From positions 99,643-163,642 of the forward strand of contig NZ_AQXU01000018.1 in assembly GCF_000376945.1 (NCBI RefSeq): 64,000 bases of DNA, in the 5' to 3' direction. The translations under genes were made by a program, and so were the position numbers. The DNA comes from Leeia oryzae DSM 17879. GTDB taxonomy: Bacteria; Pseudomonadota; Gammaproteobacteria; Burkholderiales; Leeiaceae. Of this stretch, positions 39,857-41,091 are shown piece after piece. Under the pieces are notes generated by a model that did not search any database, was not told the DNA's origin, and saw nothing but the letters and a program-made list of their open reading frames with translations. Position 1 is the stretch's first letter, and each line of letters begins with the position of its first letter.

Positions 39857-39884
39857 TTGTCAATCAACGGCCATAACCTATAGT
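39857..39884 (+). promoter_or_regulatory. Candidate sigma70 promoter of the ubiquitin gene
   Basis: TTGTCA (39857-39862) and TATAGT (39879-39884) are 16 bp apart, 31 bp before the start codon of the ubiquitin-barrel gene. No strong Shine-Dalgarno is seen before the ATG, whose upstream sequence is a T-run. Confidence 0.5.
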
Positions 39885-39915: not shown

Positions 39916-41091
39916 ATGAAAAATCATTCATTTGCATCAATCTGCTCGGCCAGACTGTTTGTTCTCATTCTCATGCTATTGCCAGTCTCAGCTTTTGCCA
40001 TGCAGATTTTTGTCAAAACCCTGACTGGCAAAACCATTGCCTTGGAAGTCGAGCCAAATGACACCATCGAAAATGTCAAAACCAAAATTCAGGAGAAGGA
40101 AGGGATTCCACCCGATCAGCAAAGATTGATTTTTGCAGGCAAGCAGCTGGAAGATGGAAGAACGCTCCAGGATTACAACATCCAGAAGGACAGCACGATA
40201 CATCTGTTACTTCGGGGTGCGTCCCCCAGTATGCAAAATGTCATGCGCTCTGCCTCAGGCATGATGATTCATGCCACCAATGCCTCTTGGCTCAATGGCG
40301 CTGAAGCCTTGTTGGGCCGGGATGAAACAGGCATCACCGTTTCTCGTTTATCTACGACCGGTATGGATGATCTGCCAGAACCCGTTATTGTAGCGGCGGG
40401 TGCAGACTGGGTATCTGGCGGAGACAGTGGCGAGCAATATGATAGCCAGATTCGTAACCTGGTAATTGGCAAGGTACTGGCCCGTCATGAAGACACTGAA
40501 TGGGGACTGCTTGGATTATATGGCAACGGCTCATTGAGCAGTGATATCGGTTTACAGCAACGGGTCGAGCAGCTGGGTGGTGCAGGCGTTGTACATCATC
40601 AATTATCTTCAAAAGCGCTGTTGACCGGCATACTGAGTCTGGTCAGGACGCGTTACAAAAACACCACCGCTACCGAATCCAACCGCGAACTTGGCTGGCG
40701 AAATGATGCGATTCTCCAGTTAAGGGTCCAGCCAGCAGACCAGTGGACCTGGCGCTCTGTTTTAGCGGGTTCGTATGAGCATATCGGGGACTCTGCCCTT
40801 TATGGCAGCAGCAGGACATTGAAACAGCTGGAGTGGCGCAATAGCCTGCGGTTTACTCCTGTGCTGTCGACGACAGCGATTCGGCCTTATGCCGAAGTAG
40901 GCTACACCATTTTTTCGCACCCGGAACTCCTCTCTCCAGGAGCAACCTGTCATTGGCTGGGTAACCTGACGCTGGGCCTGGAAAGCAGCATTGCCAAAAA
41001 CAAGCTACTGTTTGTCAAAGCCAGCTACAGCAAAGGGCTGTCCAACTATCATGCAGCCAGCCTGAGTGCCGGACTGACGATGCAATACTAA
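39916..41091 (+). CDS. Ubiquitin fused to an autotransporter-like beta-barrel, with signal peptide
   Basis: 391 residues in one frame. Residues 1-28 form a Sec signal peptide (hydrophobic core [12 protein letters not shown]) ending in AFA, so cleavage would free Met29 = ubiquitin Met1. Residues 29-100 are ubiquitin (nt 40000-40215) differing from human at only eight of 72 positions (A14, N20, T28, E32, Q57, D64, I67, L70). All seven lysines, Ile44 and His68 are kept. After Arg72 the sequence turns to GASPSMQ, so the diglycine tail is missing. Residues about 103-140 are a linker; 150-391 alternate polar/apolar strands ([26 protein letters not shown]) ending in LTMQY, like an autotransporter barrel. 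Base composition is lower in GC than in the neighbours, suggesting transfer. Expected place: outer-membrane surface. The barrel assignment is from pattern, not from a search. Confidence 0.9.

Follow-up and report, generated by a model that had tools for sequence, protein, structure and literature searches.

What does a ubiquitin, usually treated as a eukaryotic intracellular modifier, do in a bacterium, where it forms the only passenger of an autotransporter-like protein? The question is raised by a single gene in a stretch of 64,000 nucleotides from Leeia oryzae DSM 17879 (contig NZ_AQXU01000018.1, positions 99,643 to 163,642; hereafter the window, whose own coordinates are used for this gene). 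The gene occupies 39916..41091 on the plus strand and consists of a single open frame of 391 aa. Judged from the modelled architecture of its product, it would quite probably display a tethered ubiquitin without the diglycine on the outer cell surface, as a ligand for another cell.

Architecture of the ubiquitin-barrel protein

The preliminary description of this locus, made from the sequence alone, had proposed a signal peptide, a ubiquitin and an autotransporter-type barrel within one frame. This architecture is supported by the open reading frame, a match to the Pfam family PF00240, a structure model and a structure comparison. The N-terminal 28 residues (39916..39999, plus strand) are predicted as a Sec-type signal peptide from the sequence, in which a hydrophobic core is followed by the residues AFA abutting Met1 of the ubiquitin, and they passed a simple home-made signal heuristic. 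In the database the protein (P0083, 363 aa) begins at this Met1 (window position 40000), so that its annotation misses the signal peptide.

Protein residues 29-100 (ubiquitin residues 1-72; 40000..40215, plus strand) affiliate with the ubiquitin family (PF00240, E 1.4e-30), as had been anticipated, and in the model they superpose on solved ubiquitins with an rmsd of about 0.5 over 72 residues. They are identical to human ubiquitin at 64 of 72 positions and retain L8, R42, I44, H68 and R72, with V70 replaced by Leu. Positions 73-76 read GASP instead of the human LRGG and the sequence runs on in frame for 291 more residues, modelled as a helix and a barrel, so that the product is not a free, unanchored ubiquitin. 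Because the diglycine at 75-76 is missing from the sequence and the C-terminus is fused onward, conjugation by the usual chemistry would be unavailable. A search of the L. oryzae genome for E2 enzymes (PF00179) gave no match and likewise none in 14 control genomes, i.e. it had no positive control.

Modelling of the whole protein, which the preliminary description had suggested, placed a helix and a 12-stranded barrel behind the ubiquitin. In this AlphaFold2 model an alpha-helix of 29 residues (mature residues 76-104, protein residues 104-132; 40225..40311, plus strand) is the predicted in-pore linker, and the strands of the predicted C-terminal beta-barrel fall within mature residues 129-361 (protein residues 157-389; 40384..41088, plus strand). 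The last residue of the protein is Tyr. A structure comparison matched the model with NalP, AIDA-I and EspP; the alignment with NalP covers model residues 77-363 and comprises 261 aligned residues, at least 22 of them before model residue 125. On these grounds the C-terminal region is predicted to be a helix and 12-stranded barrel of the autotransporter type. The barrel postulated earlier for residues 103-391 is thus borne out by the model and the structure comparison, whereas the PF03797-like match expected for it stayed under the cut-off. The PF03797 profile serves as a detection aid for type Va autotransporters and is not their defining trait.

Upstream of the gene, a sigma-70-like candidate promoter (TTGTCA-16-TATAGT; 39857..39884, plus strand) lies 31 bases 5' of the start codon. 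With two overlapping matches against a mean of 1.6 in shuffled sequences, its assignment to the gene is suggestive only.

A family sharing this barrel

Because eukaryotic polyubiquitins swamped a homology search with the whole protein, the barrel part was searched alone and then as a profile. The barrel-only search (E ≤ 0.01) recovered the protein itself together with P0122 and P0123 (Quatrionicoccus australiensis), both of which also carry a ubiquitin in front. A scan of GTDB contigs added full-length relatives on Hydrogenophilales contigs, namely L007 and L008 on one contig and L009 in another genome. The profile, built from six barrels and applied at E ≤ 0.001 to 8000 word-sharing candidates scored from a database of 5.8 billion proteins, returned at least 16 proteins, the L. 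oryzae protein and the partial P0137 included, with PF00240 in 16 of 16. This search was not exhaustive, as P0122 and the L007 protein are absent from its list. Within the limits of such a word-based search, barrels of this type were found only together with ubiquitin. The further ubiquitin-barrel fusions that the preliminary description had proposed to look for therefore exist, in other Betaproteobacteria and beyond. The curated PF03797 cut-off of 26 bits is passed by P0122 (29.3 bits), P0123 (27.7 bits) and L007 (30.0 bits). For the window protein and L007 to L009, which have the barrel in common, one shared fusion event is the simpler reading of the sequences. The two genes on the Hydrogenophilales contig (L007:8013-9167 and L008:358-1506) are diverged from each other.

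Sixteen full-barrel members (P0001 and P0122 to P0136, including the L. oryzae protein and the near-identical sequences P0124 and P0126; the partial P0137 was dropped) were compared in detail. Their mean pairwise identity is 83% in the ubiquitin and 55% in the remainder. None of the 16 has a glycine at position 75 or 76. The lysines K11, K27, K29, K33 and K63 are kept in all 16, and K48 in 15. A signal-like pre-sequence abuts Met1 in 15 members, and the record of P0124 starts at Met1. Several replacements argue against a eukaryotic reader shared by the whole family: L8 is Pro in five members, R42 is Ile in six, V70 is Ser or Thr in five and R72 is lost in 12 and kept in four. The window protein, P0122 and P0123 retain L8, R42, I44, H68 and R72 altogether; the majority of the other members carry replacements on this surface. 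A special conservation of the I44 surface was considered and dropped, since this surface is largely intact across the wide set described below and partly lost in the barrel family.

A wider set of probably secreted ubiquitins

The best 80 of 259 relatives from the GTDB scan and six IMG/VR loci gave 86 loci with 91 ubiquitin open reading frames (ORFs). By the heuristic, 77 of the 91 have a signal-like sequence whose end abuts Met1, a share biased upward because one of the two GTDB search patterns contains the signal-peptide end. Among the 14 ORFs that fail the heuristic, seven have no start at least 17 residues upstream, and some resemble polyubiquitin or have a ubiquitin boundary that is shifted. 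The conservation table excludes these 14, and its 76 distinct secreted ubiquitins are identical to human ubiquitin at a median of 66 of 72 positions, with H68 in 99% and L8 in 97%. The tail LRGG at 73-76 is retained in seven of the 91 ORFs; not all copies therefore lack the diglycine. In these other bacteria ubiquitin repeatedly stands at the head of proteins that carry surface-sorting domains, and it is near-unchanged although most of the copies examined here lack the conjugation tail.

What follows the ubiquitin varies. Among 92 proteins, the window protein included, PF03797 was matched in 23 at E ≤ 0.001, an S-layer domain in nine and IPTL-CTERM in two; of ten proteins scanned singly, seven pass the curated PF03797 cut-off, and not all of the 23 E-value matches do. 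NCBIfam profiles (E ≤ 0.01) matched IPTL-CTERM in three proteins, midcut-by-XrtH in three and a T9SS tail in one. A tail of fewer than 20 residues is found in 11 of the 91 ORFs, four of which are consecutive free signal-ubiquitin genes in one locus of Pedobacter cryoconitis (L080:7986-9385). Signal-ubiquitin-barrel proteins more distant than the family above, with barrels over the cut-off, occur in organisms that are isolates by record title, i.e. Pseudomonas kuykendallii (L051, 70.5 bits), Rhodoferax lacus (L073, 101 bits) and Paradonghicola geojensis (L030, 39 bits), and the signal-ubiquitin-barrel pattern is hence not only a binning effect.

A structure alignment covered 24 rows chosen by eye (the window protein, P0122, P0123 and 21 loci). 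A long N-terminal extension with a pattern like GI.FTSS stands ahead of the signal core in L012, L015, L018, L054, L063 and L073 and, by eye, in L016 and L067. Extensions of this type head proteins with differing C-terminal ends, either a barrel or an exosortase-like tail, which at the sequence level suggests anchor swapping behind one common head.

Across 22 barrel-type genes (the window gene and those of 21 loci), 29.5% of the fourfold-degenerate sites in the ubiquitin parts agree versus 25.5% expected from composition, while the protein agreement is 86%. Synonymous sites are thus near saturation, and the ubiquitin protein therefore seems to have been maintained by selection for a long time, unless the genes are separate acquisitions from different eukaryotes.

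Some of the carriers may be mobile elements. The IMG/VR contig L001 encodes a signal peptide with ubiquitin and has tail-protein families near by, and contig L003 encodes a signal peptide, a ubiquitin and a part that scores 24.4 bits with PF03797, slightly below the cut-off, in the vicinity of terminase small subunit and ParB/methyltransferase families. Ten ORFs were scanned in this check, six with PHROG matches, and they suggest that the carriers include phages or prophages. A search of a phage collection gave no match. Two distant plasmid matches were seen, both ubiquitin-domain proteins: one from a plasmid of Ruminococcus albus 7 that bears the annotation ubiquitin family protein, and one from a large plasmid record of Pseudoalteromonas shioyasakiensis that is annotated as an Ig-like domain-containing protein.

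Genome context

The gene is matched once in its own genome and in none of 59 related genomes, two congeners included. Its G+C content is 0.45-0.54 versus mostly 0.55-0.67 around it, with one stretch of 0.53 located 3 kb upstream. The flanking genes, read from their translations as a pirin-like gene and an alpha/beta hydrolase, have no obvious link to the ubiquitin-barrel. These features, together with the absence of PF03797 matches from the genome, fit horizontal transfer. An empty site could not be shown, because the two flanking genes were not found together in the two congeners.

Recurrent neighbours were sought around the window gene and 21 barrel-type loci, L007 and L008 being on one contig. 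Groups present in at least three loci were the ubiquitin genes themselves, a group in six loci including the window that was read as a diguanylate-cyclase-type signalling gene, the generic LysR-type (four loci) and ABC-transporter (three loci) groups, and one group of four lying antisense to ubiquitin genes. The one specific-looking neighbour is a SET-like gene in six of the 21 barrel-type loci (L012:426-1433, L015:200-1186, L018:3609-4595, L054:9252-10247, L063:6843-7832 and L073:9252-10247), encoding a homologous protein of about 330 aa that adjoins the ubiquitin-barrel gene. These are the first six of the loci named above for the GI.FTSS-type pattern. The SET-like protein has an INHS-like motif, which we take to be as in SET domains; the one protein scanned gave no Pfam match, and a search of the PDB gave no sequence match. 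Its model is weak (pLDDT 67.8) and obtained two Foldseek matches at E ≤ 0.001, both to plastid RNA polymerase chains (TM 0.33-0.42) that are presumably the SET protein PAP7. The neighbour is possibly a lysine methyltransferase acting on ubiquitin. It was not found in the L. oryzae genome by a search that had no positive control.

Surface display and its alternatives

How could the ubiquitin reach the cell surface? After Sec export, cleavage between AFA and Met would leave the native Met1 of ubiquitin as the new N-terminus. To judge from the match with NalP, AIDA-I and EspP, the barrel would be inserted with the help of BAM with the helix in its pore, and the ubiquitin would pass out, fold outside and remain tethered by a linker of three residues and the helix. 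The weakest step of this proposal is the binding partner. By analogy with BfUbb, the secreted ubiquitin of Bacteroides fragilis, a ligand directed at competitor bacteria is tentatively ranked first; a ligand directed at a eukaryotic grazer or host is ranked second, close behind, and adhesion or a structural role share the remaining probability.

Several points weigh against surface display. Expression, secretion and display are predictions, and ubiquitin is a stable, fast-folding protein that could stall translocation. PF03797 matched the window protein with an E of 0.67 only (10.1 bits, under the cut-off of 26), so that the barrel call needed other evidence, and the relatives L008 (25.1 bits) and L009 (21.4 bits) miss the cut-off as well. 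Scanned over the whole L. oryzae genome, the same profile found no protein, the ubiquitin-barrel included, and it matched two of 14 control genomes. Neither a target nor a partner gene nor an immunity gene was found.

Some of these points would also suit a ubiquitin that stays in the periplasm as the N-terminal domain of an outer-membrane barrel and binds an envelope partner: stable folds are hard to translocate, and both termini of a 12-stranded barrel are periplasmic unless a linker threads the pore. We regard such a retention as quite improbable, since the helix region superposes on NalP over the residues before model residue 125 given above, and S-layer domains are joined to ubiquitin too (9 of the 92 proteins). 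Release of the ubiquitin from the barrel, to act on related strains in the manner of BfUbb, is a less remote but still doubtful alternative. EspP is cut at an Asn-Asn or Asn-Asp kind of pair, and the helix of the window protein contains neither. BfUbb, for its part, has no anchor; it does offer a precedent, being secreted without a terminal glycine and antagonising other B. fragilis strains, as reported in PMC5705921. That the fusion arose through faulty binning, faulty assembly or eukaryotic contamination has a negligible probability. In favour of an artefact are the typically eukaryotic nature of ubiquitin and the many metagenome bins among the related records, but the contig measures 163 kb and has bacterial neighbours, and the same fusion recurs in a named species and several metagenomes. 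With the same order of parts in other assemblies, the fusion is neither an assembly artefact nor due to chance; these independent occurrences refute the artefact.

A further alternative is a version of the display reading and does not exclude it, namely that ubiquitin-binding proteins, deubiquitinases or the E1 of grazing protists or hosts recognise the displayed ubiquitin, as a ligand or decoy, after uptake. Taken by itself we consider it rather unlikely. The strong conservation of the 76 secreted ubiquitins relative to human ubiquitin speaks for it, as do the residues L8, R42, I44, H68 and R72 retained in the window protein, there with V70L. The frequent replacement of R42, V70 and R72 in the barrel family speaks against it, and the carriers include taxa that we take to be free-living. 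A delivery system was not identified, and no search for one was made. BfUbb, likewise lacking the diglycine, is reported in PMC3352274 to form a covalent complex with human E1 and to be inhibitory to ubiquitination in vitro, which supports a eukaryotic and argues against a purely bacterial target. This finding left our ranking of targets unchanged, because the C-terminus of the window ubiquitin is fused and that of BfUbb is free. The window ubiquitin may meet host ubiquitin-binding proteins or conjugating enzymes, as the preliminary description had envisaged. Surface display remains our preferred explanation; if it is true, it becomes a testable question which extracellular partner constrains a ubiquitin that is not a modifier, and the protein would offer a natural, very small passenger for studying the outer-membrane translocation of a stable fold.

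Beyond L. oryzae, we propose a class of surface-anchored ubiquitins in bacteria of many phyla, a proposal whose chances we judge to be evenly balanced. A constant head of signal peptide and non-modifier ubiquitin would be combined with the anchor of each lineage, be it an autotransporter barrel, an S-layer domain or a tail of the exosortase or T9SS type; in some cases a predicted lysine methyltransferase of the SET-like kind would be encoded next to it. The ubiquitin would act as a general extracellular recognition module between cells, with phages among the carriers.

Comparison with known systems

Among secreted ubiquitins of bacteria, BfUbb is the only one known to us whose function has been tested (PMC3352274, PMC5705921; a later paper is Nat Microbiol, doi 10.1038/s41564-023-01541-5). 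Its signal peptide is cut right before ubiquitin Met1 (PMC5705921) and its processed form is a free small protein of about 9 kDa (PMC3352274). The window protein resembles it as an exported ubiquitin with a cleavage site before Met1 (here predicted), no terminal glycine and a presence in some strains only. Unlike the free BfUbb, the window ubiquitin continues into a helix and a 12-stranded barrel, both predicted. A solved ubiquitin-like protein from B. fragilis (PDB: 8hm2) shows 66% identity across 73 aligned residues. The secreted ubiquitin of the nematode Globodera rostochiensis likewise consists of a signal sequence and an exported ubiquitin, as related in PMC5705921; in contrast to the window protein it is eukaryotic and has a C-terminal extension of 12 residues, and that source mentions no barrel.

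The type Va autotransporters NalP, AIDA-I, EspP and EstA share with the window protein an N-terminal export signal, a passenger, a helical linker and a 12-stranded C-terminal barrel (here predicted). They differ from it in that its entire passenger is one 72-residue ubiquitin without a beta-helix and its barrel is missed by PF03797. The closest parallel in architecture is P0123 from Quatrionicoccus australiensis, with a homologous barrel that is 41% identical over the barrel region; unlike the window protein it passes the PF03797 cut-off, and its database name is ubiquitin-like protein only.

In the open-licence literature, judged by titles and the start of abstracts, a barrel- or surface-anchored bacterial ubiquitin was not among the papers listed, and a description elsewhere is possible; the word ubiquitin is absent from the main texts of an autotransporter survey (PMC3419190) and a review (PMC8151025). 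A free secreted ubiquitin is already known from BfUbb, and the combination of ubiquitin and barrel is new as far as the literature was searched. Each half of the window protein resembles a known family, the ubiquitin by its sequence and the type Va autotransporter by predicted structure. More surprising than this single protein is the broader occurrence of surface-anchored ubiquitins.
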